Part shown: positions 4,673-19,444 of the stretch, in pieces
Layout of the letters: every line of letters begins with the position of its first letter
How positions within the stretch are numbered: position 1 is the first letter of the stretch
NCBI GenBank assembly: GCA_017550745.1
Contig: JAFZOG010000144.1
Location: 1-38,988 of the forward strand
Length of the DNA stretch: 38,988 nucleotides
Origin: Clostridia bacterium
Lineage (GTDB): Bacteria > Bacillota > Clostridia > Christensenellales > Aristaeellaceae
Direction of reading: 5' to 3'
Program-made: the position numbers and the translations under genes
Notes under the pieces: generated by a model
The model's input: the letters and a program-made list of their open reading frames with translations, nothing else
The model's database searches: none
What the model was told of the DNA's origin: nothing

Positions 4673-4695
4673 GCCACCAGAATGCCACCACCAGC

Positions 4696-5032: not shown

Positions 5033-5076
5033 TACAAATCACTCGATGGGAAAAGAGGATCAGATCACAGCATCAA

Positions 5077-5310: not shown

Positions 5311-5357
5311 GCTCTTTTTGTATAACGGAATTTTACCGAAAAATACTGACAAACAGG

Positions 5358-5385
5358 TTGACAAATCCCCTTTTTCTGTTATAAT
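5358..5385 (+). promoter_or_regulatory. Promoter of tRNA-Leu
   Basis: A perfect TTGACA (5358-5363) and a perfect TATAAT (5380-5385) with a 16-base spacer, 27 bases ahead of the mature tRNA start. Confidence 0.85.
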
Positions 5386-5411
5386 GTTATTCGTTGCCAA
5401 GCGGCAGGTAC

Positions 5412-5493
5412 GCGGTCGTGGCGGAATTGGCATACGCGCACGTTTGAGGGGCGTGTTCTTAACCGAGTACGGGTTCAAGTCCCGTCGACCGCA
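5412..5493 (+). tRNA. tRNA-Leu (anticodon GAG)
   Basis: The acceptor stem GCGGTCG pairs with CGACCGC and discriminator A is at 5493. The anticodon arm CACGT-TTGAGGG-GCGTG gives anticodon GAG. A leucine-type variable arm and the GGGTTCAAGTCCC T-arm are present. CCA is not encoded, unlike in the two serine tRNAs. Confidence 0.95.
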
Positions 5494-5501
5494 CTGCAGG
5501 G

Positions 5502-5955: not shown

Positions 5956-5999
5956 CTGCCGCCTCCCATCCGATAGAATACTCACGGTCATCTGCAACC

Positions 6000-6057
6000 G
6001 TTAGTTTAAACTAACCATTGTATTTCATATTATAGTTAGTTATTTCTAATATGTCAA
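6000..6057 (-). promoter_or_regulatory. Strong minus-strand promoter with two palindromic operator-like boxes
   Basis: On the minus strand a perfect TTGACA (6052-6057) and a perfect TATAAT (6029-6034) are 17 bases apart. The spacer contains TTAGAAATAACTAA (6036-6049). Just downstream of the -10 lies a perfect 16-base palindrome, GTTAGTTTAAACTAAC (6000-6015). The two boxes share TTAG(N6)CTAA. Spacing and sequence resemble sites of DtxR/IdeR/MntR-type metal repressors; that identification is inference. Confidence 0.65.
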
Positions 6058-6133
6058 GCTTTTTTTCTTTGCGCCTTTCACTTTCCGCTTCATGCGGTTA
6101 TGTCCTTTGATTTCAAACGGAAAATAAAAGTAT

Positions 6134-6162
6134 TTGCTTTTTTGGCCTACTTCATGTATAAT
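6134..6162 (+). promoter_or_regulatory. Promoter of the tricarboxylate operon
   Basis: TTGCTT (6134-6139) and TATAAT (6157-6162) are separated by 17 bases. This leaves an untranslated leader of roughly 135 bases before the first gene at 6306. I see no riboswitch fold or clear operator in the leader. Confidence 0.65.
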
Positions 6163-6305
6163 AAGATTGATAAAAAAATAGAAGTGCCGTTTTCCTTTCG
6201 CAATGAAATCCTGTACAGTTCATTCTTTCAATCTTAAAGCGGCCCGCGCGCTTGCATGGTCAAGGCCCGGCAGCTTAAGAAATACATTTTTCAGGAGGAA
6301 ATCCC

Positions 6306-7301
6306 ATGAAAAAAATCATTGCTCTGTTGCTCGCTATGATGATGCTGATCGGTATCTGCGCCGTTGCTTCCGCCGAGGACTGGAAGTTCGAGCGCGGCAT
6401 CACCATCGTGTGCCCCTGGGGCCTTGGCGGCGGCGCTGACAGCACCATCCGTCCCATGGCGACCTTGATGCAGAACTATCTGGGCGTGCCCGTTGACGTG
6501 CGCAACGAGACCGGCGGCAGCGGCGTGACCGGCGCTACCTTCGCCTTCAAAGAGCCCGCCGACGGCTATACCTTCCTGCTGGGCACCCAGTCCCTGTACA
6601 TCCAGGATATGATGGACAACATGGACTTCAACTTCAAGGATGAATTCGAGTGCGAAGACGTGCTGGTTCACTCCATCAACATGCTGGCCGGCTCCGCCAA
6701 GCAGATGGAAAAGTACGGCATCAAGACCTTCTCCGACCTGCAGGCCTATGCCGGCACGCATCCCTACGAAGTGTCCGTGGCCATGCTGACCGCCACCGGC
6801 GTGGACGGCATGTGCTTTGAAATCGCCACCGACGGCCTGGCCCTGAACCCCGTCACCTACGATTCCGGCTCCTCCGTGAACAGCGACCTGGCCGGCGGCC
6901 ACGTGGACCTGGCTGTGGGCGGCTATGACGACATGAGCGGCCTGATCGAATCCGGCGATATCATCCCGCTGCTGGTGTTCTGCGAGCATCGCATCGATAT
7001 CTGCCCCGACTGCGAATGCACCGCTGAAATCGGCATCGACAGCTACGCCGGTCCCTGGCGCGCCATCTTTGCCAAGAAGGGCACTCCCCAGGGCGCGATC
7101 GACAAGATCATCGAAGCCGTGGAAGCCTGCCGCAGCGACGAAACCTGGCAGGAATTCATCAAATCCGCCGCTTATGACCAGCGCGAGATCCCCGCTCCCG
7201 GCGAAGCCCTGCAGGCCTTCTGCCTGAGCGAATACAAAGACCTGCGCGACTATATGTTTGAGCAGGAGACCCTGGAAAAAGATTACGACGATCTGAAGTA
7301 A
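6306..7301 (+). CDS. tctC: Tripartite tricarboxylate transporter solute-binding protein (TctC/Bug family)
   Basis: A 331-residue extracytoplasmic binding protein that would capture a tricarboxylate or related acid and hand it to the TctBA membrane complex. Residues 1-23 are a signal peptide (MKKIIALLLAMMMLIGIC then AVASA) without a lipobox cysteine at the cleavage point. The mature part begins with the family pattern ITIVCPWGLGGGADSTIRP, then VDVRNETGGSGVTGA and ADGYTFLLGT, the loops that bind carboxylates in Bug proteins. Length is normal. The start is fixed by AGGAGG at 6293-6298. It heads the operon and is separated from the membrane genes by a 13-bp hairpin, which probably allows the binding protein to be made in excess. 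The ligand cannot be read from sequence; genes downstream point to citrate or a compound one step from it. Confidence 0.9.
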   Translation: MKKIIALLLAMMMLIGICAVASAEDWKFERGITIVCPWGLGGGADSTIRPMATLMQNYLGVPVDVRNETGGSGVTGATFAFKEPADGYTFLLGTQSLYIQDMMDNMDFNFKDEFECEDVLVHSINMLAGSAKQMEKYGIKTFSDLQAYAGTHPYEVSVAMLTATGVDGMCFEIATDGLALNPVTYDSGSSVNSDLAGGHVDLAVGGYDDMSGLIESGDIIPLLVFCEHRIDICPDCECTAEIGIDSYAGPWRAIFAKKGTPQGAIDKIIEAVEACRSDETWQEFIKSAAYDQREIPAPGEALQAFCLSEYKDLRDYMFEQETLEKDYDDLK

Positions 7302-7321
7302 TCCCTCATACAGCGATCAAA

Positions 7322-7353
7322 GAACCGGGGAAAAGGTTCCTTTTCCCCGGTTC
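7322..7353 (+). other. Intercistronic hairpin after tctC
   Basis: A perfect 13-bp stem, GAACCGGGGAAAA (7322-7334) with TTTTCCCCGGTTC (7341-7353), and a 6-base loop, without a T run. It most likely protects the 3' end of the binding-protein message or causes partial termination. Confidence 0.6.
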
Positions 7354-7389
7354 CGCGATTCAAACGAAGATAAAAGGAGCTGACATCCT

Positions 7390-7911
7390 TTGTTTGAGCT
7401 GATTTGCAATGTCCTCCTGTTCGTGCTGCTGGGGTATACCTACTTCACGCACGTGCTGGAAGCTAAGGTGCCCAAGAGCTATATGAAGAACCCCAACGTC
7501 CTTCATCCCAGCGTATGGCCCAAGGTCATCATCATCCTGCTGCTGATCTGCATCGCCATCAACATCGTCAAAATCATCAAAAAGAACAAGGGCAATCCCG
7601 AATTTACGTTCAAAGCCTTCGGGAAAAACAGCCTGCAGTTCATCAAGTCCAAGATGTTCCTGGGCATGGTGGTGCTGGTCGTGGCTTCCTTCATTCTGGA
7701 GCCCCTGGGCTTTGTGGTTACCGCCGCGCTGCTCATGTTCGCCTACGGCATGCTGCTGGGCGAAAAGAAGTGGTGGCGGCTGGCCCTGATTTCCTGCGTT
7801 TTGGCTGTTTTCCTGCATATCGCTTTCAGCGGGCTGCTGGGGGTCAGTCTGCCCCGCGGCACGGTGTCCTTCCTGCGGTCCTTCTCTCTGTTCCTGGAAA
7901 ATCTGTTCTAA
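7390..7911 (+). CDS. tctB: Tripartite tricarboxylate transporter small membrane subunit (TctB family)
   Basis: A 173-residue membrane protein with four predicted hydrophobic segments: residues ~4-20, 40-58, 92-118 (MFLGMVVLVVASFILEP) and 125-155. It matches the small TctB (DUF1468) subunit in size and layout, and its position between the binding protein and TctA is diagnostic because TctB sequences diverge. It assists TctA in secondary, ion-coupled uptake. The start is a TTG codon at 7390, preceded by AAAGGAG at a good distance; no ATG in the frame fits. The gap to tctA is 14 bases, so the two are co-translated. Confidence 0.82.
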   Translation: MFELICNVLLFVLLGYTYFTHVLEAKVPKSYMKNPNVLHPSVWPKVIIILLLICIAINIVKIIKKNKGNPEFTFKAFGKNSLQFIKSKMFLGMVVLVVASFILEPLGFVVTAALLMFAYGMLLGEKKWWRLALISCVLAVFLHIAFSGLLGVSLPRGTVSFLRSFSLFLENLF

Positions 7912-7925
7912 GGAGGAATTGAAAC

Positions 7926-9485
7926 ATGAATTTAGGTGAAATGTTTGTTTCCGGCCTTAGCGCTGTCTGGGGCGGAGGCACCATGTTCCTGATGGTCGTC
8001 GTGGCCATCGTACTGGGCACCATTTTCGGCGCCCTGCCCGGCGTGTCGGCCACCATGGCCGTGGCTCTGGGCCTGACCTTTACTTACACCATGGGCCCCG
8101 TGCCCGCCATCGTGTTCCTGACGGCTATCTATTGCTCGTCTATCACGGGCGGCTCCATCACGGCCATCCTGTTCAAAATCCCCGGCGTGCCTTCATCGGC
8201 CCCCACCACGTTTGACGGCTATCCCATGGCCCAGCGCGGCGAGGCGGGCAAGGCCCTGGGCGTGGCGCTGCTGGCTTCCGCCGTGGGCGGCCTGTTCTCC
8301 GCCCTGGTGATGTTCCTGCTGGCCACCCCGCTGAGCAAGGCGGCCCTGGCCTTTGGCAACGGCGATATGTTCGCCATCACGTTCCTGGGCCTTTCCATTC
8401 TGATCGTGCTGGATACCGAGCATATCCTGACCACCATCATTTCCGGCCTGCTGGGCCTGCTGCTGGCCTGCATCGGCCAGGATCCCATGGCCGGCGTGGC
8501 CCGCCTGACCTTCGGCCAGACCAGCCTGCTGTCCGGTATGGAAATGATCCCCGTGCTGATCGGTCTGTTCGCTGTCACCGAAGTGCTCAAGCAGACCAAT
8601 ACCAAGAAGCGCCTCTCCGCGGAGGACGGCGTGGGCAACAAGGGCAAGGTAAACACCAAGATGCCCACCATGAAGGAACTGTGGGGCATTAAAATGACCC
8701 TGATCCGCTGCTCCATCGTCGGCACCGTGGTCGGCATCCTGCCCGGCGCGGGCGCCACCATCGCTTCCTTCATGTGCTACACCATGGAGAACAAGCTCTC
8801 CAAGTATCCTGAAAAGTTCGGCACCGGTATCATCGACGGTATCGCCGCTTCCGAAGCCTCCAATAACGCTGCCACCGGCGGCGCCATGGTTCCCCTGCTG
8901 TGCCTGGGCATCCCCGGCGGCAATGCGGCTGCCGTGATGGCTTCCGCCCTGGCCCTGAAGGGCGTGCAGATGGGTCCCCGCCTGCTGAACGTGCAGCCCG
9001 AATTCCTGTCCGCCACCTTCATCACCATGATCGTCACCAACATCCTGATGGTTATCGTGGCCATCGGCATCGCCAAGGTGTTCGCCCAGATCCTGGCCGT
9101 TCCCTACTACTACTTGGGCCCCATCATCCTCCTGCTGGCCACCATCGGCTCCTTCTCCGAAGGCAACATCGTGGGCGTATCAGTCATGGTCATCGCCGGT
9201 ATCATCGGGATCGTGGTCAAGTATATGCACCTGAACAGCGCCGCCATCGTGCTGGGCCTGGTGCTGGGCGGCATGTGTGAAAAGTATTTCTCGCAGGCGT
9301 TCCAGAAGGCCCACATCGTTACCGCCCAGATGGGCTTTGGCGATTATGTGGCCAAGGTGTTTGAGAGCCTGTTCGGCTCTCCCATCTCCGCCATCGTCAT
9401 GGTCTGCTGCATCCTTCTGCTGCTCAGCCCCATTTATATGCCGTTTGTGAAAAAAGTCACAGGCAAGGACAAGAAGGCTGCCTAA
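7926..9485 (+). CDS. tctA: Tripartite tricarboxylate transporter large permease (TctA family)
   Basis: A 519-residue permease with about twelve transmembrane segments that carries out substrate translocation. Both TctA repeats are clear: GALPGVSATMAVALG (~39-54) with GGSITAILFKIPGVPSSAP (~75-95) in the first half, and GILPGAGATIASFM (~262-275) with ASEASNNAATGGAMVPL (~308-325) and LGIPGGNAAAVM in the second. Length is typical. AGGAGG precedes the ATG. It follows tctB closely and, with tctC and tctB, completes a full tripartite system, so no classical CitS/CitM-type citrate carrier is needed. Confidence 0.93.
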   Translation: MNLGEMFVSGLSAVWGGGTMFLMVVVAIVLGTIFGALPGVSATMAVALGLTFTYTMGPVPAIVFLTAIYCSSITGGSITAILFKIPGVPSSAPTTFDGYPMAQRGEAGKALGVALLASAVGGLFSALVMFLLATPLSKAALAFGNGDMFAITFLGLSILIVLDTEHILTTIISGLLGLLLACIGQDPMAGVARLTFGQTSLLSGMEMIPVLIGLFAVTEVLKQTNTKKRLSAEDGVGNKGKVNTKMPTMKELWGIKMTLIRCSIVGTVVGILPGAGATIASFMCYTMENKLSKYPEKFGTGIIDGIAASEASNNAATGGAMVPLLCLGIPGGNAAAVMASALALKGVQMGPRLLNVQPEFLSATFITMIVTNILMVIVAIGIAKVFAQILAVPYYYLGPIILLLATIGSFSEGNIVGVSVMVIAGIIGIVVKYMHLNSAAIVLGLVLGGMCEKYFSQAFQKAHIVTAQMGFGDYVAKVFESLFGSPISAIVMVCCILLLLSPIYMPFVKKVTGKDKKAA

Positions 9486-9499
9486 TCAAACTGTTTGAT

Positions 9500-9551
9500 G
9501 GAAGCGTCCCGTGGAAGCCTGCTTCTTTCGCGGGCCGCTCGGGACGCTTCC
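9500..9551 (+). other. Intercistronic hairpin after tctA
   Basis: GGAAGCGTCCC (9500-9510) pairs perfectly with GGGACGCTTCC (9541-9551) over a 30-base loop. The following TCTAACAC is not a T run, so this is more likely an mRNA-stability or partial-termination element than a full terminator. Confidence 0.5.
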
Positions 9552-9578
9552 TCTAACACAAATCAAGGGGGACACTGC

Positions 9579-11855
9579 ATGTTGAAGCTATATGATTCCG
9601 GCGTGTATCTGCTCCATGGCCGCCAGGTCGTATCGGACGCACAGGAAGCGGCGAAGCTGGCAGGCAAGCCTGTTTCCAAAGAAGAAGCCGCCAAAGGCAC
9701 CATCGCCTACGGCATCCTGAAAGCGCACAACAAGAGCGGGGATATGGACCACCTGCAAATGCGCTTTGACAGCCTGACCAGCCATGATATTACCTATGTG
9801 GGCATCATCCAGACGGCCCGGGCCTCCGGGATGAAGCAATTCCCCATGCCCTATGTGCTCACCAACTGCCACAACAGCCTGTGCGCCGTAGGCGGCACCA
9901 TCAATGAGGACGACCACATGTTTGCCCTCAGCGCGGCCCATAAGTACGGCGGCATTTACGTGCCCACCAATATGGCTGTCATCCACTCCTTCAACCGTGA
10001 AATGATGGCGGGCTGCGGGCGGATGATCCTGGGCTCCGACTCCCACACCCGCTACGGCGCCATCGGCACCCTGAGCGTTGGGGAGGGCGGCGGCGAACTG
10101 GCCAAGCAATTGGTGGGCCGCACGTATGACGTGGCCCGGCCCGGCGTGGTTCTGATCTATCTGGACGGGGAGCCCAAGCCCGGCGTCGGCCCGCAGGATG
10201 TGGCGCTGCAAATCTGCGGCGCGGTGTACCAGAACGGCTATGTGAAGAACAAGGTGATGGAATTCATCGGCCCCGGCGTCGCTAAGCTGCCCATGGAATA
10301 CCGCAACGGCATCGACGTAATGACCACCGAGACCACCTGCTGGTCCTCCATCTGGGAAACCGACCGGGCCACGGAAGAATACCTGGCCATCCACGGGCGT
10401 CCTGAAGCGTACAAAGAATTGAAGCCTGCCGACGTGGCGTACTATGACGGCTGCGTGTACATCGACCTGTCCGCCATCGAAAGCACCATCGCCCTGCCCA
10501 TGCATCCCAGCCACACCATCACCATCCGCGAACTGCTGGAGAACCCCAAGGACATCCTGCATGAATGCGAGGCAAAGGCCAACAAGCAGATCGTCGGCGC
10601 GAAGATCGACCTGGTAAGCAAGGTGCATGACGGCGGCATCTGGGTCGAGCAGGGCCTGGTAGCCGGCTGCTCCGGCGGCACGTACGACAACGTATGCGCG
10701 GTGGCCGACATCCTGCGGGGCAACAGTATCGGCAACGGCGCGTTCACCATGAGCGTGTATCCCGGCTCCATGCCCGCCTACCTGCAATTGCTCAGGAACG
10801 GTGCGCTGACGGACATTGCCGCCGCAGGCGCGATCATCCGCGAATGCTTCTGCGGCCCCTGCTTCGGCGCGGGCGACACCCCCGCCAACGGCGAATTCTC
10901 CATCCGCCACACCACCCGCAACTTCCCCAACCGCGAGGGCAGCAAGCCCGGCGAGGGCCAGATGAGCGCCGTAGCGCTGATGGACGCCCGTTCCATCGCC
11001 GCCACCGCTATCAACCACGGCAAGCTGACCCCTGCCACCGACCTGGATATCAAGTATCAAAAGTATCCCTATGCCTTCGACAAGTCCGTGTACGACAAAC
11101 GCGTATACTTCGGCTTCGGGAAGGCGGAGCCCGAGCACGAATTGAAATTCGGCCCCAACATCAAGGATTGGCCCGAGCAGCCCGCATTGACCGACGATTT
11201 GCTGGTGAAGGTGGTTTCCTACATCACCGATCCTGTGACCACCACCGACGAGCTGATTCCCTCCGGCGAAACCTCCTCTTACCGCTCCAACCCCGAGCGC
11301 CTGAGCGAATTTGCCCTCTCCCGCAAGGATCCGCAGTATGTGGGCCGCAGCAAGGCCGTGCGCCAGATCGAGCGTGACCGCGCGGCGGGCAAGGGCTTGC
11401 CGGACGAAGTGAAGAAGGTTTATGAAGCGCTGGCCAAAGTGGTCAAAGTGGATCCCGAACACACCGACATCGGCTCCACCATTTTCGCCGTGAAGCCGGG
11501 CGACGGCTCCGCCCGTGAGCAGGCAGCGTCCTGCCAGCGCGTGCTGGGCGCGTCCGCCAATCTGGCCAAGGAATACGCCACCAAGCGCTATCGCTCCAAC
11601 TGCATCAACTGGGGCATGGCTCCCATGCTGGTGAAGGATGAGAGCGCGTTCGCCCTGGGCGACTGGGTGTTTATCCCAGGGCTTCGCAAAGCCGTTCTGG
11701 AAGGCACGCCGGAATTCACCGCCTACGCTGTGAAGCCGGAGGGCACGGTGACGCCCTTTGCTGTCAGCCTGGGCGCGCTCACGCCCGACGAGCGCCAGAT
11801 CATCGCCGACGGCTGCCTCATCAACTATTACCGCAACCATCCTGTAAACGACTGA
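9579..11855 (+). CDS. Aconitase-superfamily hydratase (YbhJ-like)
   Basis: A 758-residue, four-domain protein of the aconitase superfamily, close in size to the uncharacterised E. coli YbhJ. Cys364 in AGCSGGTYD, and the CFCGPC motif with Cys425 and Cys428, fit the three ligands of the [4Fe-4S] cluster. LGSDSHTRYG supplies the Asp154-Ser155-His156 triad. GDGSAREQAA (Ser644-Ala-Arg646) corresponds to the GSSRE loop with the catalytic Ser, although the second Ser is Ala. The cluster and active-site residues suggest a reversible hydratase/isomerase acting on a tricarboxylate. Next to a tricarboxylate importer and citrate lyase, it could convert aconitate or isocitrate to citrate, or act on another hydroxy-acid; the substrate is inference. 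ATG 9579 is chosen over the longer frame from 9495 because AAGGGGGA precedes it and the extension lies in the hairpin. Confidence 0.85.
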   Translation: MLKLYDSGVYLLHGRQVVSDAQEAAKLAGKPVSKEEAAKGTIAYGILKAHNKSGDMDHLQMRFDSLTSHDITYVGIIQTARASGMKQFPMPYVLTNCHNSLCAVGGTINEDDHMFALSAAHKYGGIYVPTNMAVIHSFNREMMAGCGRMILGSDSHTRYGAIGTLSVGEGGGELAKQLVGRTYDVARPGVVLIYLDGEPKPGVGPQDVALQICGAVYQNGYVKNKVMEFIGPGVAKLPMEYRNGIDVMTTETTCWSSIWETDRATEEYLAIHGRPEAYKELKPADVAYYDGCVYIDLSAIESTIALPMHPSHTITIRELLENPKDILHECEAKANKQIVGAKIDLVSKVHDGGIWVEQGLVAGCSGGTYDNVCAVADILRGNSIGNGAFTMSVYPGSMPAYLQLLRNGALTDIAAAGAIIRECFCGPCFGAGDTPANGEFSIRHTTRNFPNREGSKPGEGQMSAVALMDARSIAATAINHGKLTPATDLDIKYQKYPYAFDKSVYDKRVYFGFGKAEPEHELKFGPNIKDWPEQPALTDDLLVKVVSYITDPVTTTDELIPSGETSSYRSNPERLSEFALSRKDPQYVGRSKAVRQIERDRAAGKGLPDEVKKVYEALAKVVKVDPEHTDIGSTIFAVKPGDGSAREQAASCQRVLGASANLAKEYATKRYRSNCINWGMAPMLVKDESAFALGDWVFIPGLRKAVLEGTPEFTAYAVKPEGTVTPFAVSLGALTPDERQIIADGCLINYYRNHPVND

Positions 11856-11864
11856 ATCCTGTCT

Positions 11865-11908
11865 GCGTGGAGGGTTCGGAAGATCAGCGTCTTCCGGGCT
11901 CTCCACGC
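11865..11908 (+). other. Intercistronic hairpin after the hydratase gene
   Basis: The outer arms GCGTGGAG (11865-11872) and CTCCACGC (11901-11908) enclose an inner CGGAAGA/TCTTCCG stem. There is no T run. It resembles the hairpins after tctC and tctA in position and probable role. Confidence 0.5.
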
Positions 11909-11929
11909 TTCCCGTAAAAGAGGAACGAA

Positions 11930-12397
11930 ATGAATACCATCACCGTTTCAGAAGCGTTCAGCAACGCCCCGCCGCGCAGCCCTGCCGTGCTGTGCCTGAA
12001 AGGGCCGGACGGAGCCACGGATATGATCCTCACCGACTGGTTCACCTGGCTGAACATCAAGCGTAACCCCATGATCAGCTTTTCCATGCCGAAAAATGCC
12101 AGCCTGGGCCTGAACCTGAAGGAAGGCGACGCTTTCGCGCTGGCCTTCCCCCTGACCGATGAAGCGCTGAAATACAGGCAGGGCGTCCGCACAGCGGCGG
12201 AGGGGCAGGAAAGAAAGCTGCCCGACGGCGTAGAGCCGATTGCTGTGGAGGGGCTGGAGGTGCTGGTGCCCAAGGGCAGCGAGGTGGTGCTGCGCTGTAC
12301 CCTGGCCGGGGCATATAATTATCCGTTTAAAAAAGTGCGCATTTTCAACTGCAATCTGGAGGAGGCCGCAGGCAATACGGAAAGAACGCTTGACTGA
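11930..12397 (+). CDS. Flavin-reductase-like, FMN-binding split-barrel protein
   Basis: A 155-residue protein resembling the flavin reductase-like family. AVLCLKGPDGATDMILTDWF, NIKRNPMISFSMPKNAS and the later LKEGDAFALAFPL follow the order of the FMN-binding split barrel in this family (strand, flavin-phosphate loop, then the 'n.F.vn.l' region). Members bind FMN and reduce flavins or serve as electron partners. It has its own ribosome binding site (AGAGGA) 33 bases after the hydratase, within the tricarboxylate cluster. Its job there is unknown; supplying reduced flavin or protecting the hydratase iron-sulfur cluster are possibilities. Family assignment is moderate because the protein is short and divergent. 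Confidence 0.6.
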   Translation: MNTITVSEAFSNAPPRSPAVLCLKGPDGATDMILTDWFTWLNIKRNPMISFSMPKNASLGLNLKEGDAFALAFPLTDEALKYRQGVRTAAEGQERKLPDGVEPIAVEGLEVLVPKGSEVVLRCTLAGAYNYPFKKVRIFNCNLEEAAGNTERTLD

Positions 12398-12492
12398 ATG
12401 CGGAAGCAAGCCTTCAGCTGAGCTGCCATAGAGAAAGTGAGCTTTCCTGCCATCCCCAGCGTATCATGATGAAAGAATAAGGCGATACACCG

Positions 12493-12951
12493 ATGATTCT
12501 TGATTTGATTTCCCGCCTGCCCCTTTATGAAAGCCAGATCCCCGGCGCGGGCCGGATTGCCAAAGCGTTCGCCGCCAACCGGCCGCAGGATGCGCCCTGT
12601 GAGGTGCGTCTAAAAAGCTACGCGCCAAAACTCGCGGCGCAGCAGCGCTTTGAAGTGCATTTTCACACGATTGATCTCATGATGGCGAAAGCCGGAGCGG
12701 AAGTAATCCACCTGCTCCCCTGGAGTTCCCTGACGCCTGCCGAGCCGCTGCCCAACGGGGCGGATGGGCGCAAGCTGAACGGCGCGCCCCAGGGCAGCGC
12801 TGCGGTGCTGGAAGCCGGATGTTTCTGCGCCATTTTTCCGGGGGAAGCGCACATGGTGGGCGGACCGGCGGACAGCGCGCCGGAGGGTATTGAAAAATGG
12901 GTGGTAAAAACGCCCGCGCCAGAACTGTTTTGCATTGAGGACAATGAATGA
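12493..12951 (+). CDS. YhcH/YjgK/YiaL family protein (DUF386)
   Basis: A 152-residue cupin-like protein of the YhcH/YjgK/YiaL family. Characteristic segments are a short N-terminal helix with ISRLPLYESQIPG, the metal/ligand motif RFEVHFHTIDLMM around residue 55, and the second motif FCAIFPGEAHMVGGPA near 116-130. Family members occur in operons for sialic acid, aldonate or other sugar-acid use and are thought to bind or isomerise carboxylated sugars. Presence in a citrate lyase cluster is unusual and suggests that the imported substrate, or a side product, is a hydroxy-acid in need of anomer or lactone handling; this is inference. Its stop overlaps the start of the next gene (ATGA), so it is translationally coupled to the ChrA pair. 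Confidence 0.8.
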   Translation: MILDLISRLPLYESQIPGAGRIAKAFAANRPQDAPCEVRLKSYAPKLAAQQRFEVHFHTIDLMMAKAGAEVIHLLPWSSLTPAEPLPNGADGRKLNGAPQGSAAVLEAGCFCAIFPGEAHMVGGPADSAPEGIEKWVVKTPAPELFCIEDNE

Positions 12952-13511
12952 AAAAAGAACAGAAGAGCCGAACGCTGGAAATATTTAAAACCTTTTTGAA
13001 ATTCGGCTGTTTTACTTTTGGCGGCGGCTGGAGCATCGTGGCGCAGATCCAGAAGGAATACGTGGAAAAGAAGCACTGGATCACGGATGAGGAGCTGCTG
13101 GACTTTACCTCTGTCGGCCGCTCCACGCCCGGCCTCATGATCGGCAATGCCAGCGTGCTCTTCGGTTACCATACGGCGGGCGTTCCGGGCGCAGTGGCCG
13201 CGCTGCTGGGCATCGTGATCCCGCCGGTGGCGATCATGCTGGGGGTAGTGTTCCTGTACGATCTGGTGAAGGACAATCTTTATGTGGCGCGGGCCATGAT
13301 GGGCGTGCGGGCGGCGGTGGTGCCGATCATTTTCAGCGCCATGCTCAAGCTGTTCAAATCCGGCATGAAGGACGCGGCCTGCTATGCGGTGGCGCTGGGA
13401 GCGCTGGCGCTTTGCCTGTTTACGAAGCTGAATAACGTGCTGATCGTGCTGCTGGGCGCAGCGGCGGGACTGTGCATTCAGGAGGTGAGGCAGCGCCGTG
13501 ATTTATCTTGA
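12948..13511 (+). CDS. chrA: ChrA-type transporter, first half-size subunit
   Basis: A 187-residue membrane protein of the short-chain CHR family, in which two half-size proteins encoded in tandem form one transporter. It has KFGCFTFGGGWSIVAQIQKE near residues 22-41, matching the FGGG motif, and SVGRSTPGLMIGNASVLFGY (~60-79), the family's TPG segment, followed by four to five hydrophobic helices. Classical ChrA exports chromate, but many homologues sit in unrelated operons and their substrates are unknown. Start and stop overlaps link it tightly to the YhcH gene before (4 bases) and its partner after (14 bases). The likely role here is movement of an anion, perhaps a sulfate-like or carboxylate ion tied to tricarboxylate metabolism; this is inference. 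Confidence 0.82.
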   Translation: MKKEQKSRTLEIFKTFLKFGCFTFGGGWSIVAQIQKEYVEKKHWITDEELLDFTSVGRSTPGLMIGNASVLFGYHTAGVPGAVAALLGIVIPPVAIMLGVVFLYDLVKDNLYVARAMMGVRAAVVPIIFSAMLKLFKSGMKDAACYAVALGALALCLFTKLNNVLIVLLGAAAGLCIQEVRQRRDLS

Positions 13512-14040
13512 GCTGTTCATTTCCTTCCTGATGATCGGGTTCACCAGCTTCGGCGGCATGTCCATGATCCCGCTGATCAACGACCAGATGCTCTCCCACG
13601 GCTGGATGACCTCCCAGGAGGTGGCGGACATCGTGGCCATCGCGGAGATGACCCCCGGCCCGCTGGGCCTGAACTGCGCCACCTTTGCCGGGGCGCGCAC
13701 CGCCGGGATCTTAGGTTCGCTGTGCGCTACGCTGGGCGTCATTTTTCCGTCGCTCACCGTGACCATGCTGGCGGCCATGTTCCTCAAAAAGTTCAAGGAA
13801 AGCAAGCTGATGGACGAAGCGCTCTACGGCATCCGCCCGGTGTGCATCGGCATGATTTTCGCCGTGATGATCCAGCAGAGCATGACCAACTACGCCGGCA
13901 CGCTGCTGGGCTTCTTGTCCTGGCCCGCACTTTTGATCGGCGCCACGGCGCTGGTCATGCTGATCCGGTTCAAGTGGAGCGTGCCCAAAACCATCCTGTT
14001 GGCCGCCGGGCTGGGCCTGGCGATGGGAGGATTCGCTTAA
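13498..14040 (+). CDS. chrA: ChrA-type transporter, second half-size subunit
   Basis: The 180-residue partner of the preceding subunit. ISFLMIGFTSFGGMSMIPLI (~8-27) carries the FGG motif and IAEMTPGPLGLNCATFAG (~49-66) the TPGP motif, which is closer to the classical GPxGQ form than in the first subunit. About five transmembrane segments follow. It starts with GTG 13498 inside the end of the first subunit, preceded by GGAGG, so the pair is co-translated in a 1:1 ratio as expected for an antiparallel heterodimer. It ends 49 bases before citD, which places the transporter in the same transcript as citrate lyase. Confidence 0.82.
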   Translation: MIYLELFISFLMIGFTSFGGMSMIPLINDQMLSHGWMTSQEVADIVAIAEMTPGPLGLNCATFAGARTAGILGSLCATLGVIFPSLTVTMLAAMFLKKFKESKLMDEALYGIRPVCIGMIFAVMIQQSMTNYAGTLLGFLSWPALLIGATALVMLIRFKWSVPKTILLAAGLGLAMGGFA

Positions 14041-14089
14041 GGAAAAGAATTTCTCAAAAGAGAAATAAGGATAGAAAGGAGCCAAGCAT

Positions 14090-14389
14090 ATGGAGATCAA
14101 AAAGCCCGCCGTGGCGGGCACGCTGGAGTCCAGCGACTGCATGGTGACGGTGGAGCCGGGACAGGGAGCGGTGGAGCTTGACCTGGACAGCGCGGTCATC
14201 CGTCAGTACGGCAAGCAGATCCGCAAGGTGATCCATGAAACGCTGGACCGCCTGGAAGTGACCAATGCCAAGGTGACCGTGGTGGATAAAGGCGCGCTGG
14301 ACTGCACCATCAAAGCGCGGGTGGAATGCGCGGTGTACCGCAGCAACGATGTCAAAGACAACCTGCCGTGGGGAGGTGTCATCAAATGA
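14090..14389 (+). CDS. citD: Citrate lyase acyl carrier protein (gamma subunit) CitD
   Basis: The 99-residue carrier subunit of citrate lyase. It holds the 2'-(5''-phosphoribosyl)-3'-dephospho-CoA prosthetic group, whose thiol is acetylated and exchanges acyl groups between CitF and CitE. The attachment motif AGTLESSDCMVTVEP places the modified serine at residue 14, the conserved position, and the later GALDCTIKARVECAVYR block is also typical. Length is normal (~98). AAAGGAG precedes ATG 14090. Its TGA overlaps the start of citE (ATGA). Confidence 0.95.
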   Translation: MEIKKPAVAGTLESSDCMVTVEPGQGAVELDLDSAVIRQYGKQIRKVIHETLDRLEVTNAKVTVVDKGALDCTIKARVECAVYRSNDVKDNLPWGGVIK

Positions 14390-15285
14390 ATCCCAACATG
14401 AAGCGGCTTCGCAGGAGCATGATGTTCCTCAACTGCCAGAAGCCCAGCCTCATCAAAGACCCCTACGTCTACGCGCCTGACTCCATCATGCTGGACCTGG
14501 AGGACGCCGTGGCCGAGCGGGAAAAGGACGCGGCCCGGTATTCCCTGTACCACGCTTTACAGGAGATCGACTACCGCGGTGTGGAGCGCGTTGTGCGCAT
14601 CAACGGCCTGGACACCGACCTGTGGATCGAGGACATCCGCTGTTCTATAGCGGGTGGCTGCGACGCCATCCGCATCCCCAAGACGGAAACGGCCGCTGAT
14701 GTGCAGAAGGTGGAGGCGGCAGTCATCGCTGCCGAAAAGGAATTCGGCGTGGAAGAAGGCCGCACCCTCATCATGGCCGCGCTTGAATCCGCCCGGGGCG
14801 TCATGAACGCCTTAGAAATCTGCCAGGCCAGCCCCCGGCTGTTCGGTATCGCTCTGTCCGGCGGCGACTACACCAAGGATTTGCAGACCACCATTTCCGG
14901 CACCGGCGTGGAGCTGATGGGCGCTCGCCAGCACATGATCATCGCCGCCCGCGCGGCCGGCGTGCAGTGCTTCGATACCGTGTACACGAACCTGAACGAT
15001 ATGGAAGGCTTCCGCAAAGACGTGGAAACCATCCATACCATGGGCTTTGACGGAAAATCCATTGTCAATCCCCGGCAGATCCCCATCGTGCATGAAATCT
15101 TTACGCCCAAGCCCAAGGACATCATTTTCGCCGAAAAGGTGGTTCGGGAAATCGACACCAAGAAGGCCCAGGGCATCGGCGTGTTCACGGTGGACGGCAA
15201 GATGATCGATATTGCTTTCTATGACGGCGCGAAGCGCACCCTCGCCTTGGCGAAGGCAAGCGGCGTATACAAGGGGGATTTGTAA
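14386..15285 (+). CDS. citE: Citrate lyase beta subunit CitE (citryl-ACP lyase)
   Basis: A 299-residue HpcH/HpaI-aldolase-superfamily protein that cleaves citryl-ACP to acetyl-ACP and oxaloacetate. RRSMMFLNCQKPSLIKD at the N terminus, DSIMLDLEDAVAEREKDAAR with the Mg-binding acidic residues (~33-52), VVRINGLDTDLW (~70) with the substrate-binding Arg, DAIRIPKTE (~92), LESARGVMNA (~130) and the C-terminal GFDGKSIVNPRQIP are all family motifs. Start ATG 14386 overlaps the citD stop and follows GGGAGG; a longer open frame begins upstream inside citD and is rejected. citF begins one base after its stop, so the three subunits are co-translated. Confidence 0.95.
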   Translation: MNPNMKRLRRSMMFLNCQKPSLIKDPYVYAPDSIMLDLEDAVAEREKDAARYSLYHALQEIDYRGVERVVRINGLDTDLWIEDIRCSIAGGCDAIRIPKTETAADVQKVEAAVIAAEKEFGVEEGRTLIMAALESARGVMNALEICQASPRLFGIALSGGDYTKDLQTTISGTGVELMGARQHMIIAARAAGVQCFDTVYTNLNDMEGFRKDVETIHTMGFDGKSIVNPRQIPIVHEIFTPKPKDIIFAEKVVREIDTKKAQGIGVFTVDGKMIDIAFYDGAKRTLALAKASGVYKGDL

Positions 15286-15286
15286 G

Positions 15287-16837
15287 ATGAGAAACGCAGT
15301 CGGCCGGGAAATCCCCGATGAGATCCTGAAAGCGACAGGGAAAGAACCCTTCCAGGGCAACAACTATAAAAACGGCGTGCCTTTCCGGCGCCAGGGCCCC
15401 ATTGTCCGCCCCGTGATGGATAACGAGCACAGCAAGCTGGTCAAGGATATTCATGAAGCGCTGGTGAAATGCCACGCGCACAATGGAATGACCATCTCCT
15501 TCCACCACCACTTCCGCGAGGGTGATTTGATCGTGAACATGGTGATGGAAGAGATCCATAAGATGGGCTTGAAAAACATCACCCTGGCCGCCACCTCCCT
15601 GGGCAAGGCGCATGACCCGCTGGTGCCCATGATCGAGGACGGCACCATCACCCGCATTGAAGCCTCCGGCGTGCGCGGCAAGATCGGCCAGGCCATTTCC
15701 GACGGCAAGCTGAAGGGCCTCGCCATCATGCGTTCTCACGGCGGGCGCGTGCGCTCCCTGGTGACGGGCGAAACCAAGGTGGACATCGCCTTCATCGGCG
15801 CGCCGACCTCCGACGACTACGGCAATCTGCGCGGCATCGGCGGCAAAACCAACTGCGGCGTGCTGAGCTACTCCCATGTGGATGGCGATATGGCAGAGTA
15901 TGTCGTCGCCATCACGGACTGCCTGGTGCCCTTCCCCAACTTCCCCGCCCATATCTCCATGACCAAGGTTGACTATGTGTGCGTGGTGGACGCCATCGGC
16001 ATCCCCGAAAAGATCGCCACCGGCGCGGCCAAACCCACCACGGATCAGCGCAAGCTGATGATGGCGGAATACTGCACCCAGGTCGTGGTCAACACCCCCT
16101 ATTTCAAGGACGGCTTCTCCTACCAGACCGGCGTGGGCGGCGCGTCCATCGCGTCCACCATCTCCCTGACCAAGATCATGGAAGAACGGGGCATCAAGAT
16201 GGGCTTCGGCGTGGGCGGCTTGACGAAGCCCATGTGCGACCTGCTGGACCGCGGCATGGTGCGCGTGCTGATGGACACGCAGGCTTTTGACCTGGACGCC
16301 GTCAGCAACGTAATCAACCCCGCCCATCACCGCATTACCGCCGGCGCTTACGCCAACCCCTTTAACAAAGGCGCGTTCGTCAATAAGCTGGACTATGTGA
16401 TCCTGGCTTCCCTGGAAGTGGACGTCCACTTCAACTGTAACGTGGTGGTGGGGTCGGACGGCGTCATCACCGGGGCGCAGGGCGGACATCCCGACACGGC
16501 CCAGGGCGCGAAGTGCACCATCGTCATCTGCCCGCTGCTTCAGGGGCGTATCCCGGCCATCTGCACGGATGTGACCACGGTCACCACCCCCGGCGAATCC
16601 GTGGACATCGTGGTCACGGACTATGGCGTGGCTGTGAATCCCAACCGCCACGATTTGCTGGAATGCCTGCAGAAGGCGGACTGCGTGCCCCTCAAAACCA
16701 TCGAGGAACTGCGGGATATCGCTTATTCCATCGTCGGCGAGCCGGAGCCTGTGCAGTTTGAGGACCGGATCGTCGGCATCATCGAAGCCCGCGACGGCAC
16801 CATCATGGACGTTGTGCGCCAGGTAAAGCATTACTGA
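15287..16837 (+). CDS. citF: Citrate lyase alpha subunit CitF (citrate:acetyl-ACP transferase)
   Basis: A 516-residue transferase that swaps citrate for acetate on the acyl carrier, forming citryl-ACP. HNGMTISFHHHFREGDLIV (~64-82), LAATSLGKAHDPLVPMI (~101-117), IEASGVRGKIGQAIS and MRSHGGRVR are strongly conserved CitF segments, and IAFIGAPTSDDYGNLRG and VGGASIASTISLT fit the CoA-transferase-like fold. Length matches the family (~510). ATG 15287 sits one base after the citE stop; the GGGGGA ribosome binding site is inside the end of citE. A longer open frame from 15212 lies within citE and is not used. It is the last of the catalytic subunits, followed by a 176-base gap with a hairpin. Confidence 0.95.
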   Translation: MRNAVGREIPDEILKATGKEPFQGNNYKNGVPFRRQGPIVRPVMDNEHSKLVKDIHEALVKCHAHNGMTISFHHHFREGDLIVNMVMEEIHKMGLKNITLAATSLGKAHDPLVPMIEDGTITRIEASGVRGKIGQAISDGKLKGLAIMRSHGGRVRSLVTGETKVDIAFIGAPTSDDYGNLRGIGGKTNCGVLSYSHVDGDMAEYVVAITDCLVPFPNFPAHISMTKVDYVCVVDAIGIPEKIATGAAKPTTDQRKLMMAEYCTQVVVNTPYFKDGFSYQTGVGGASIASTISLTKIMEERGIKMGFGVGGLTKPMCDLLDRGMVRVLMDTQAFDLDAVSNVINPAHHRITAGAYANPFNKGAFVNKLDYVILASLEVDVHFNCNVVVGSDGVITGAQGGHPDTAQGAKCTIVICPLLQGRIPAICTDVTTVTTPGESVDIVVTDYGVAVNPNRHDLLECLQKADCVPLKTIEELRDIAYSIVGEPEPVQFEDRIVGIIEARDGTIMDVVRQVKHY

Positions 16838-16925
16838 TGCTGAGAGGCTTTCGCTGAATCATTTGTATTCTCCGCGCTGCGTTTGCAAATGTATCCGGCG
16901 GAAGCTCTTTACGGTATCCTGAATT

Positions 16926-16987
16926 AAACAGCAGGAAAAGGCGCTTTCAAGCGTATCCGCTTTAAAGCGCCTTGCTGTTTTATTTCA
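16926..16987. terminator. Strong hairpin between citF and the citXG gene
   Basis: The outer arms AAACAGCA (16926-16933) and TGCTGTTT (16973-16980) and the inner arms AGGCGCTTT and AAAGCGCCT form a two-part stem followed by TATTTC. It may terminate part of the citDEF transcript and lower expression of the maturation genes, or protect the 3' end of the message. Confidence 0.55.
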
Positions 16988-17013
16988 CAGGCAAGCAGGA
17001 AAAGGGGCGTAGC

Positions 17014-18363
17014 ATGGACGTAACCGTACAGGATATGATGATCGCGCGGGAAAGGCGTTTTCAAAAACAGCAGGCGCTGCTGTCGGAGTATCAGCAGACG
17101 CTTTTGTGCTTTACCATGAATATTCCCGGGCCGCAGAAGGACAGCCCCCTTATCCGCGCCGGGATGCGGCTGGGAAGGAGGCTGCTGGAGCAGGGCTTTC
17201 TGCGCCTGGGCGTGATGCCGACGCATGCGGAATTCGAGGAGGCGTTCACAGGCTGCACGGCGTACTACGCCCTTCCGCTGCCGCCGCTGGAAGTAAAGCG
17301 CATGACGGTCGATATCGAGGAAGCCGCACCGCTGGGACGGCTGTTTGATCTGGATGTACTGCGGCCCGGCGGTGAAAAGGTGGACAGGCAGGAAGTGGGT
17401 TTTCCCTGCCGCAAATGCCTGCTCTGCGGGCAGGACGCCCGGGTGTGCGCCCGTTCCCGCACCCATACGGTGGAAGAACTGCGGGCGGAAACGGTTCGTA
17501 TCCTGCGGGAAGCGATTCTCATGGATCAGAGCGAGACCGTGGCCCGGCTCGCTTGCCAGGCGCTGCTGTACGAGGTGCTGGTGACACCCAAGCCCGGCCT
17601 GGTGGACAGGAACCACAACGGCAGCCATCGGGACATGGACGTTTTTACCTTTTCCGCCAGCGCCGCGTCCCTGTATCCCTATTTCAGGCAATGCGCCCAA
17701 ACCGGCGCGGAAACAACGCAGCAGCCTCCCCGGGAGGTATTTGAAAAACTGCGAATGCTTGGCCGGCTGGCGGAAGGCCGCATGCTGAAAGCAACGGCAG
17801 GCGTGAACACCCATCGCGGGGCCATCTTTTCGTTGGGCCTCCTTTGCGCGGCAGCCGGCAGGCTCGGACGGGAGCAATGGGAGCCGGACGCGCTGCTGTC
17901 CCTCTGCGGAGAAATGGCGCATGGCCTCGCGGCGCGGGACTTTGGCGCCCTGAACGAAAAAAACGCCCGCAGCAACGGGCAGAAGCTGTATCTTCAATAC
18001 GGCGTCATCGGTGTCCGCGGGGAAGCGGAACAGGGCTTCCCATTGGTGCGGAACGTGGGGCTGCCAAAGCTGGAGGCGGGCTTGCGCTGCGGCCTTTCGC
18101 TCAACGACGCGGGCTGCGCTGCGCTGCTGGCCATCATGGCCCGGAACATGGACACCAATGTGATCCACCGAAGTGATTTGGACACCCAGAAAGAAGTGCA
18201 GGCCATGGCGGACAGCCTGCTTCAGGCGTCGCCTTTTCCCTCCCGGGAAGCGCTTTCAGCCTTTGACGCATACCTGGTGGAGCGGAATATTTCTCCCGGC
18301 GGCAGCGCGGATCTGCTGACGATGTGCTATCTGCTGTATTTTTTCAAGGAGGAGACCGTATGA
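17014..18363 (+). CDS. citXG: CitX-CitG fusion: citrate lyase holo-ACP synthase / triphosphoribosyl-dephospho-CoA synthase
   Basis: A 449-residue bifunctional maturation protein. Residues ~1-150 are CitX, the transferase that attaches the prosthetic group to CitD, shown by GRLFDLDVLRPGGEKVDRQE (~109-128) and the Cys/Arg block FPCRKCLLCGQDARVCARSR (~130-149). Residues ~165-449 are CitG, which makes 2'-(5''-triphosphoribosyl)-3'-dephospho-CoA from ATP and dephospho-CoA, shown by TPKPGLVDRNHNGSHRDMD (~191-209), AGVNTHRGAIFSLG (~265-278) and a C-terminal SPGGSADLL. CitX and CitG are separate in Klebsiella and fused in several other bacteria. Start ATG 17014 has AAAGGGG upstream. The stop overlaps citC (ATGA). 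Confidence 0.92.
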   Translation: MDVTVQDMMIARERRFQKQQALLSEYQQTLLCFTMNIPGPQKDSPLIRAGMRLGRRLLEQGFLRLGVMPTHAEFEEAFTGCTAYYALPLPPLEVKRMTVDIEEAAPLGRLFDLDVLRPGGEKVDRQEVGFPCRKCLLCGQDARVCARSRTHTVEELRAETVRILREAILMDQSETVARLACQALLYEVLVTPKPGLVDRNHNGSHRDMDVFTFSASAASLYPYFRQCAQTGAETTQQPPREVFEKLRMLGRLAEGRMLKATAGVNTHRGAIFSLGLLCAAAGRLGREQWEPDALLSLCGEMAHGLAARDFGALNEKNARSNGQKLYLQYGVIGVRGEAEQGFPLVRNVGLPKLEAGLRCGLSLNDAGCAALLAIMARNMDTNVIHRSDLDTQKEVQAMADSLLQASPFPSREALSAFDAYLVERNISPGGSADLLTMCYLLYFFKEETV

Positions 18364-19403
18364 GCTATGCCATTTCCCAAATATCGCCCATGGACCGGCG
18401 CGCAATGGATCAGGTGGACCGGCTGCTGGAGCGGGAAGGGATTCAGCGGGACGATCACCTGGACTATATCTGCGGCATGTATGATGACGACTATCAGGTC
18501 ATCGCCACCGGAAGCTGCTTTGGCAGCACCCTGCGCTGCTTTGCGGTGGATCATGCGCATCAGGGCGAAGGGCTGCTGAACGAGATCATCACGCATTTGA
18601 TGACGGTGCAGGCTGAGCGCGGAAATCTCCATTTATTCCTGTACACCAAGCCCGATACGGCCAAATTCTTCGGCGACGTGGGCTTTTATGAAATCGCCCG
18701 GGTGCCGGATCGGCTGGTATTCATGGAAAACAGGAAGGACGGTTTTCCGGGCTACCTCGCATCCCTGGAAAAGACCGGGAACCGGGAAGGAACGAACGCC
18801 GCCGTCGTCATGAACGCCAATCCCTTTACCCTGGGCCATCAGCACCTTGTTGAGACTGCCGCGGCCGCCTGCGATACGCTGCATCTTTTTGTCGTGAGCG
18901 AGGATATGAGCCTGGTGCCATCTTCGATCCGAAAAATGCTGGTGGAAAAAGGAACAGCCCGCCTTCGCAACGTACAGCTTCACGATTGCGGGCCTTACAT
19001 GATCTCCAGCGCCACCTTTCCAAGCTATTTTTTGAAAGACCGGCAGACGGTCATTGAAGCGCAGGCCCGGCTGGATCTGGCCGTTTTTCTCCGGATCGCC
19101 GCCGCGCTGCATATTACCGCCCGCTTTGTGGGCGAGGAACCGGCCAGCCAGGTGACCGGCATTTACAACCGCGTGATGGAAGAACAATTGCCCAAGGCCG
19201 GGATTGCCTGCCGGGTGATCCCCCGGAAAACCGCCGGCGGGCAGGTCATCAGCGCGTCCATTGCCCGGCAGGCCCTCCGGCAGAACGATTTGGAAACCTT
19301 CCGCAAAATGGTGCCGGAATCAACCTGGGCATGGTTCAACAGCCCCGATGCCGCCGCTGTTCTGCGCCGCATTCGGGAGGCCGAAAACGTGATGCATTAT
19401 TGA
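18360..19403 (+). CDS. citC: [Citrate (pro-3S)-lyase] ligase CitC
   Basis: A 347-residue enzyme that acetylates the thiol of the CitD prosthetic group using ATP and acetate, switching citrate lyase on. The N-terminal ~125 residues resemble a GNAT domain (FAVDHAHQGEGLLNEII, ~63-79). The C-terminal part is a nucleotidylyltransferase-type adenylation domain with VVMNANPFTLGHQHLVETA (HxGH-like motif, ~148-166) and ISASIARQALRQ (~297-308) in place of the usual ISSTxVR motif. Length fits the family (~340). The start overlaps the citXG stop, and AGGAGG lies 7 bases before it. Translation coupling with citXG groups the two maturation enzymes. It is the last gene of the cluster; a short CTGC-AAA-GCAG stem followed by TTTTT lies just past its stop. 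Confidence 0.93.
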   Translation: MSYAISQISPMDRRAMDQVDRLLEREGIQRDDHLDYICGMYDDDYQVIATGSCFGSTLRCFAVDHAHQGEGLLNEIITHLMTVQAERGNLHLFLYTKPDTAKFFGDVGFYEIARVPDRLVFMENRKDGFPGYLASLEKTGNREGTNAAVVMNANPFTLGHQHLVETAAAACDTLHLFVVSEDMSLVPSSIRKMLVEKGTARLRNVQLHDCGPYMISSATFPSYFLKDRQTVIEAQARLDLAVFLRIAAALHITARFVGEEPASQVTGIYNRVMEEQLPKAGIACRVIPRKTAGGQVISASIARQALRQNDLETFRKMVPESTWAWFNSPDAAAVLRRIREAENVMHY

Positions 19404-19444
19404 TATAAGCTTTCTTGTTCCATTTTCGATCTGCAAAGCAGTTT

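Follow-up and report, generated by a model that had tools for sequence, protein, structure and literature searches.

Background

What does an aconitase-like hydratase do when it is encoded between a tricarboxylate importer and citrate lyase? The question is raised by a gene cluster on contig JAFZOG010000144.1 of a Clostridia bacterium (assembly GCA_017550745.1, here genome G000), whose complete length of 38,988 nucleotides is referred to as the window. An initial annotation, made from the sequence alone, had described there a full set of genes for tricarboxylate use, had proposed that the hydratase feeds the lyase, and had suggested that the combination may be an undescribed degradation route. 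The cluster is a real and conserved module, whose substrate may be any of several tricarboxylates, and we consider it to be, probably, a tricarboxylate-fermentation module consisting of import, hydratase and lyase, with a separately encoded oxaloacetate decarboxylase (OAD). The computed support for this consists of the gene content, the recurrent linkage of the genes, a predicted aconitase fold that retains the iron-sulfur ligands and carboxylate-binding arginines, and a CitE sequence of putative citryl type.

Results

Gene content of the cluster

Open reading frames (ORFs) together with Pfam and NCBIfam scans placed every gene named in the initial annotation within positions 6306-19403, all on the + strand and in the order tctC-tctB-tctA-hydratase-155-aa gene-DUF386-chr1-chr2-citD-citE-citF-citXG-citC (Table 1), which bears out the names, the order and the single direction given there. 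TctA, TctB and TctC are all present by Pfam and make up a full tripartite tricarboxylate transporter (TTT), while the lyase set is complete by NCBIfam, with the subunits CitD, CitE and CitF as well as CitC, CitX and CitG, CitE being the only one of the subunits under its curated cut-off. The four accessory genes that had been counted encode a protein of 155 amino acids (aa), here P155, a DUF386 protein and two half-length proteins of the chromate-transporter (CHR) family. Three ATGA overlaps were seen (DUF386/chr1 at 12948, citD/citE at 14386 and citXG/citC at 18360), in line with the several reported; the description of short gaps held only in part, as 88 bp follow tctC, 93 bp tctA, 74 bp the hydratase gene, 95 bp the 155-aa gene, and 176 bp citF.

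Linkage of the hydratase and citrate lyase genes

In a family sample of 150 genomes, citF was found in 33 and the hydratase gene in 54 (over cut-off), and 11 of the 13 genomes having both carried the pair on one contig, with gaps of 31-3585 bp. The pair is also present in G344, G368 and G335, with one gene cut by the contig end. When the distance was set to 5 kb, the pair was linked in 6 of the 10 genomes having both in a phylum sample (398 genomes, the window genome left out) and in 5 of 18 in an order sample (248 genomes); these two counts were read off match listings, those for the family were computed from match positions, and many of the sampled genomes are fragmented. This check of gene order in relatives therefore upholds the proposed juxtaposition, which recurs in varied arrangements. 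Two close relatives, for instance, show tctCBA-citDEF-citC-citXG-hydratase-P155-chr1-chr2 (locus L083) and citDEF / tctCBA-hydratase-P155-DUF386-chr1-chr2 (L085), four loci of family f62 (L208-L211) have citDEF-hydratase-tctCBA flanked by citX/citG/citC-like genes, which lie upstream in L208 and downstream in the other three, and G344 carries citF, hydratase, OAD gamma, biotin carrier, OAD beta and OadA in a single run. Some of the neighbours, here and below, are named after the reference protein that BLAST placed first (e.g., AbrB, LysR, ICD and OadB). That the gene orders differ among loci argues for a function of the pairing. On a quick tree of 96 hydratases (taken from 132 rows, with all 20 linked rows kept and the others thinned), 11 changes are required to account for which hydratases are linked to citrate lyase genes, and so there were repeated gains or losses of the pairing.

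Among the best 80 of 590 relatives, citrate lyase genes were found in the fetched flanks of at least eight, a lower bound because many contigs are short. These eight are Clostridia/Clostridiales metagenome-assembled genomes (MAGs; L128, L131 and L133), Clostridium, Tissierella, a Lachnospiraceae MAG and two spirochaetes. L128 agrees with G256:C71 in both length and gene order, the flank of L138 shows citC-citXG only, and the L131 MAG is labelled as being from a roe-deer reticulum sample.

L084 shares about 92% identity with the window in the hydratase and TctA and only 55% in CitF, which would be explained if a different lyase cassette had come to lie next to a block that stayed the same. A single tctCBA-hydratase block (hydratase ~87-92% identical to that of the window) was seen with two CitF subclades, at 55-56% in L084 and L087 versus 92-96% in L083 and L085, as if the cassette had been swapped.

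The YbhJ-family hydratase

The window hydratase belongs to the YbhJ/PRK11413 family (Table 1) and shares 58% identity with YbhJ of E. coli, whose annotation is that of a putative hydratase; the family was found over cut-off in 122 of the 248 genomes of the order sample. Its predicted structure is an aconitase fold of four domains in which the three cysteine ligands of a [4Fe-4S] cluster are kept. In the alignment, the cluster cysteines, Ser642 and R447, R452, R580 and R644 are kept in 100/100 hydratases, the serine and the four arginines being what we take to be the tricarboxylate-binding residues of canonical aconitase; the R580 column holds Arg in 3/4 canonical aconitase controls, with E. 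coli AcnA, the one that differs, probably misaligned there. Changes were seen at Asn258, Asn446, Ser643 and Asp100-His101, presumably active-site residues of the canonical enzyme: N258V in 100/100, N446T in 99/100 and S643A in 99/100 hydratases, compared with N, N and S in 4/4 canonical aconitases, and CHN at the place expected for Asp100-His101, where the exact register is unsure.

Some loci hold the hydratase together with a canonical aconitase. In Peptoniphilus ovalis MSJ-1 (L180, 10001-18208) two YbhJ-type hydratases lie on either side of a canonical aconitase, in the company of RraA-like and PrpF genes; in the second of these hydratases Ser643 is retained and Asn446 is replaced by Ile. 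In L213 (G677), citDEF stands in one run with two PrpF genes and with genes for a canonical aconitase, a YbhJ-type hydratase and a protein resembling isocitrate dehydrogenase; a TRAP-type transporter and a protein resembling lactate racemase are encoded nearby.

Specificity of the citrate lyase

On a tree of 42 CitF rows (f62 loci, short rows and identical rows left out), the window CitF falls in a clade of 21 rows (SH-aLRT 99) with 15 hydratase-linked rows, apart from the E. coli-like lyases and from those of methylaspartate clusters, while the hydratase-linked CitF of L064 groups with the E. coli type instead. Classical citrate lyases and methylaspartate-cluster lyases can be told apart at 55 columns of CitE, of which the window has the classical residue in 35, the methylaspartate residue in 5 and neither in 15. 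Position 96 is Arg in 11/11 classical and 14/14 hydratase-linked rows, Met in 3/3 methylaspartate rows, and Arg in 9 and Met in 5 of the other 14, with the neighbours checked for two of the three methylaspartate rows, L064 counted as classical, and L128 and L169 placed among the others though hydratase-linked. Met also occupies the Arg96 place in the mitochondrial CitE-like protein 5vxc and the malyl-CoA lyase 4l9y. Judged by sequence, Arg96 may bind the third carboxylate, and the window CitE looks to be of the citryl rather than the citramalyl type. The identity of a citramalate lyase was considered and set aside as improbable, on account of Arg96, the 35 versus 5 columns, and the separate CitF clade of the methylaspartate lyases.

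Metabolic partners of the hydratase and the lyase

Fourteen cluster genomes, all of them drafts, were compared with 14 control genomes. (Si-)citrate synthase (PF00285) was found in 0/14 cluster genomes versus 13/14 control genomes, no search for Re-citrate synthase having been made. Isocitrate dehydrogenase (PF00180) was not found in ten of the 14 cluster genomes, four of these ten being 97-99% complete: G000, G256, G269, G335 and G344 gave weak matches of 26-57 bits (a further family scan covered that of G000 alone), G003 and G274 gave nothing, and G035, G190 and G377 have only LeuB-like proteins, 59-69% identical. As for the remaining genomes, an NADP-isocitrate dehydrogenase of G330 passes the cut-off, the isocitrate-dehydrogenase-like proteins of G346 fall below it, one of them with part of a PRK07229-type aconitase beside it, the protein of G291 is of the tartrate-dehydrogenase type, and that of G368 is an ambiguous family member. 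With citrate synthase and isocitrate dehydrogenase both missing from the matches in ten of the 14, these searches show no partner for the hydratase other than the lyase, and in those ten genomes the hydratase most likely supplies the lyase. Taken with the recurrent linkage, this supports the earlier claim that the two belong together.

Several relatives encode proteins of 313-322 aa that match the isocitrate/isopropylmalate dehydrogenase family only weakly; they were noted at G000:C176:84145-84636 (L119) and in L116, L118, L120 and L125, that of L119 reaching 32 bits with leuB.

OadA-like proteins above 600 bits occur in 12/14 cluster genomes, and fragments in the other two. None is over the TIGR01108 cut-off of 756.5, which is probably due to the biotin domain being encoded by a gene of its own in these genomes, and the same model also matches in all 14 control genomes; with PRK12331 (oxaloacetate decarboxylase, cut-off 718), the G190 protein passes at 739 bits and that of G344 falls just under at 703. 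In G000, contig C118 (L216) holds an OadB piece followed by an OadA-like gene, whose product is 67% identical to that of G344, and C90 (L217) holds OadB and a biotin carrier; the OAD genes are thus missing only from the cluster.

Accessory genes

P155 has no Pfam or NCBIfam match, and a comparison with PDB chain sequences returned one chance-level match (E 0.33), while the 50 matches listed by Foldseek are flavin reductases or other FMN/FAD-binding or reductase proteins. As it has no sequence match in the PDB, its fold rests on a model of moderate confidence. The P155 gene also lies 3' of the hydratase gene in L083, L084, L085 and L086, the DUF386 gene recurs in L085, L086 and L087, and the CHR pair stands at the cluster in L083, L085, L086, L087 and L131. 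A split CHR pair was also seen ~4-8 kb from a YbhJ-type hydratase in L133, L160 and L196, including a Synergistota MAG (Fretibacterium). Our guess is that the accessory proteins might transport the substrate, the product or a counter-ion.

Transcripts, features and flanks

The hairpin after citF (16938-16973) looks like an intrinsic terminator, and it is absent from the list of the consensus terminator scan. As it is strong and has a T-rich tail, citXG-citC may be a second transcript, which suggests that the cluster is made as two transcripts, split between citF and citXG. The hairpins after tctC, tctA and the hydratase gene lack T-rich tails, and the hairpin search of the cluster gaps found none 3' of the 155-aa gene. 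No consensus promoter for the cluster stood out in 5800-19700, where the 7 promoter-like sites are little above chance (shuffle mean 5.6) and the single 12-of-12 match lies on the opposite strand.

Table 1. Genes and hairpins of the tricarboxylate cluster, with the family or structure match for each
Feature	Position	Strand	Evidence
TctC-like solute-binding protein of a tripartite tricarboxylate transporter	6306..7301	+	PF03401, 65 bits; nearest solved relative 25hk, TTT binding protein, 100 bits
Hairpin tctC/tctB	7322..7353	+	15/15 pairs
TctB, small membrane subunit	7390..7911	+	PF07331, 68 bits
TctA, large membrane subunit	7926..9485	+	PF01970, 445 bits
Hairpin tctA/hydratase gene	9500..9551	+	hairpin search
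YbhJ-family (PRK11413) iron-sulfur hydratase, predicted aconitase fold	9579..11855	+	NF008503/PRK11413, 1249 bits, curated cut-off 641
Hairpin 3' of the hydratase gene	11865..11908	+	hairpin search
155-aa protein (P155), flavin-reductase-like split barrel in the model	11930..12397	+	AF2 pLDDT 70; Foldseek best E 3.3e-5
YhcH/YjgK/YiaL (DUF386) protein	12493..12951	+	PF04074, 41 bits
CHR (chromate transporter) family, half 1 (chr1)	12948..13511	+	PF02417, 148 bits
CHR family, half 2 (chr2)	13498..14040	+	PF02417, 142 bits
CitD, citrate lyase acyl carrier protein	14090..14389	+	TIGR01608, 125 bits
CitE, citrate lyase beta subunit, putative citryl type by sequence (Arg96)	14386..15285	+	TIGR01588, 363 bits, under cut-off 443
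CitF, citrate lyase alpha subunit	15287..16837	+	TIGR01584, 628 bits, cut-off 501; 535 bits to 2hj0
Terminator-like hairpin citF/citXG, then TGCTGTTTTATTT	16938..16973	+	16-nt arms, 94% complementary; T-rich tail
CitX-CitG fusion, prosthetic-group synthesis and transfer	17014..18363	+	CitX TIGR03124, 154 bits; CitG TIGR03125, 293 bits; one ORF
CitC, citrate lyase ligase	18360..19403	+	TIGR00124, 292 bits

Just upstream of the cluster, at 4420-5494, lie three tRNA genes (two Ser, one Leu); tRNA genes are a common setting for acquired DNA. A perfect TTGACA-17-TATAAT at 6029-6057 on the - strand precedes a 144-aa ORF (5535-5969, no Pfam family), which we take to resemble the C-terminal part of a hydrolase of the metallo-beta-lactamase fold with its start missing. 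Defence-system models run against four flanking ORFs gave only weak matches, of 16-17 bits, for two of them, and no near match to the contig was found among plasmid records.

Discussion

Proposed route

In the route that we favor, TctCBA would import a tricarboxylate, driven by an ion gradient, and the YbhJ-family hydratase would convert isocitrate and/or aconitate to citrate and back, which would open the route to more than one tricarboxylate. Holo-citrate lyase CitDEF, activated by CitX-CitG and CitC, would then split citrate into acetate and oxaloacetate, and a split oxaloacetate decarboxylase, encoded elsewhere, would turn the latter into pyruvate. Genome context cannot separate isocitrate, cis-aconitate, trans-aconitate and citrate as the substrate, and no ligand of TctC could be read from its solved relatives, which include binding proteins named for other ligands (e.g., terephthalate).

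Several points weigh against this route. The presence of the two genes is uncorrelated in the family sample (13 genomes with both, 20 with citF only, 41 with the hydratase only, 76 with neither; Fisher p 0.68, odds ratio 1.2), so the association is one of position. No citF over cut-off was found in 41 of the 54 hydratase genomes of that sample (G344 and G368 have a citF cut by the contig end), 13 of the 18 order genomes with both genes have them not within 5 kb, and the hydratase stands beside isocitrate dehydrogenase in L064, L194 and L020, which points to an ordinary aconitase role at these loci. Moreover, citF was not found in any of the five same-genus genomes of the family sample, and the assembly of the window has a completeness of 88.8% and a contamination of 7.45%; absences in G000 are therefore weak, and the contig could be foreign to its assembly. 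Finally, the available part of PMC4054840 describes YbhJ, with reference to Blank et al. 2002, as an aconitase paralogue devoid of catalytic activity, and reports for the E. coli ybhJ mutant peroxide sensitivity and, within that part, no tricarboxylate phenotype. In favor of the route, the same text gives lowered NADPH in the ybhJ deletion, which would fit an enzyme feeding isocitrate dehydrogenase. In the parts available of two further sources, ybhJ is a match in a biofilm screen (PMC10645362), and a link is drawn between the LysR protein YbhD and the genes ybhH and ybhI, with YbhJ termed a putative hydrolase (PMC9068703).

Alternative explanations

If TctCBA brings in citrate, the lyase could ferment most of it and the hydratase divert some through isocitrate to 2-oxoglutarate and glutamate, an anabolic use that we hold to be unlikely. 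It would account for L064, where the hydratase adjoins an NADP-isocitrate dehydrogenase and a GltD-like protein, for L194, where it adjoins an isocitrate-dehydrogenase relative (BLAST match only) plus citDEF-C-XG, and for G079, in which isocitrate dehydrogenase is present and the hydratase is the only aconitase-family match. It agrees poorly with G000 and the nine other cluster genomes, some nearly complete, in which isocitrate dehydrogenase was not found, and with G346, whose separate PRK07229-type aconitase (seen in part) stands by the isocitrate-dehydrogenase-like gene, yet whose hydratase stays in the lyase cluster. We are equally doubtful of a special case of tricarboxylate fermentation, in which the YbhJ-family enzyme would hydrate trans-aconitate directly, with no isomerase needed. 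Its near-universal N258V, N446T and S643A, unlike canonical aconitases, would suit such an activity, and the hydratase adjoins a PRK07229 aconitase in L180 and L213 and, by BLAST, a relative of that enzyme in L169, so each of the two may have a role of its own. A PrpF-type aconitate isomerase was not found in 13/14 cluster genomes, G000 (at 88.8% completeness) among them, and G424 has a cluster of the same plan in which a PRK07229 aconitase and PrpF are encoded, and its genome gave no match of the YbhJ type over cut-off. From this one case it might be supposed that the hydratase replaces aconitase plus PrpF and acts on trans-aconitate, but the argument by substitution rests on one locus, L064 implies isocitrate formation, and the hint is weakened by E. 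coli, L180 and L213, where the hydratase has a PrpF-family gene as its neighbour. The full extension of this idea, that YbhJ/PRK11413 is a distinct tricarboxylate hydratase, as opposed to a dead or a spare aconitase, and makes citrate from trans-aconitate, or from several isomers of aconitate, with no isomerase involved, and that TctCBA-hydratase-lyase-OAD is a dedicated aconitate fermentation of anaerobes, must be regarded as speculative and on balance unlikely.

Were the YbhJ-family protein catalytically dead, e.g., a sensor or regulator, its place beside the lyase would be regulatory, which would accord with the inactivity stated for the E. coli protein and with the three active-site residues that differ from aconitase across the family. 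We find this very improbable, given the cysteines, serine and arginines kept throughout the 100 members and the isocitrate dehydrogenase of G135 (locus L064) and G079, which have no other aconitase-family match. Still harder to credit is a lyase that splits a non-citryl substrate such as citramalyl, with the hydratase acting on a methyl analogue: CitE is indeed under its family cut-off and the CitF clade is apart from the E. coli type, but Arg96 is replaced by Met in the methylaspartate-cluster CitE, 5vxc and 4l9y, and the methylaspartate lyases form a clade of their own. Least probable of those considered is a neighbourhood without function, in which the hydratase is a general aconitase that stands there by chance. 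The uncorrelated presence across the family and the many unlinked hydratases would be expected from it, whereas 11 of 13 linked genomes, compared with ~0.4% expected per genome (a simple 10-kb-in-2.5-Mb estimate that ignores relatedness), the varied gene orders and the repeated changes of linkage would not.

Comparison with described systems

The route proposed for tricarboxylate fermentation is not new, and the suggestion of an undescribed degradation route is not supported, as the conversion of aconitate through citrate to oxaloacetate was already described for Acidaminococcus fermentans, which ferments trans-aconitate and citrate by aconitate, citrate, oxaloacetate and pyruvate (PMC3035267, available part). 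According to the same source, that organism resembles the window in having a gene with an aconitate hydratase domain (Acfer_0096), whose locus number adjoins that of a citrate transporter gene (Acfer_0097), and citrate lyase genes (Acfer_0408-0410) beside citrate transporter genes; it differs in that hydratase and lyase have separate locus numbers and the transporters are annotated for citrate, whereas in the window the TTT importer, the hydratase and the full lyase set stand together. The tar system of Bacillus velezensis, with the aconitate isomerase TarA and the importer TarB, is an isomerase-based use of trans-aconitate, and likewise joins uptake to the entry of an aconitate isomer into central metabolism (PMC11495376, available part), but its operon consists of a PrpF-superfamily isomerase and an MFS importer, and PrpF was not found in G000. 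E. coli has the same lyase set in citCDEFXG-citT, and its ybhJ follows a putative tricarboxylate transporter gene in ybhH-ybhI-ybhJ; the two stretches are, however, ~150 kb apart, and neither shows a TTT importer. The citramalate lyases of L075 and L076, which presumably belong to the methylaspartate pathway, share the CitDEF-CXG architecture and differ in their own CitF clade, in Met for Arg96, and in having methylaspartate mutase and methylaspartate ammonia-lyase as neighbours. No link between YbhJ and citrate lyase was found in the literature searched, judged by title or abstract opening, nor was the clustered TTT-hydratase-lyase form with a YbhJ-family enzyme, and this clustered form is the part not found in print.

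Conclusions

The cluster connects the use of organic acids with split CHR proteins, a family known for chromate transport, and if the dedicated aconitate fermentation were true, the flavin-reductase-fold protein, DUF386 and the CHR pair would be unexplained partners of that system. The papers on YbhJ, as far as their available parts go, give phenotypes but no reaction, and the recurring pairing gives this orphan family a testable job. The conserved link to citrate lyase speaks against the inactivity of YbhJ and narrows its candidate role to a few tricarboxylates, which makes that role assayable.

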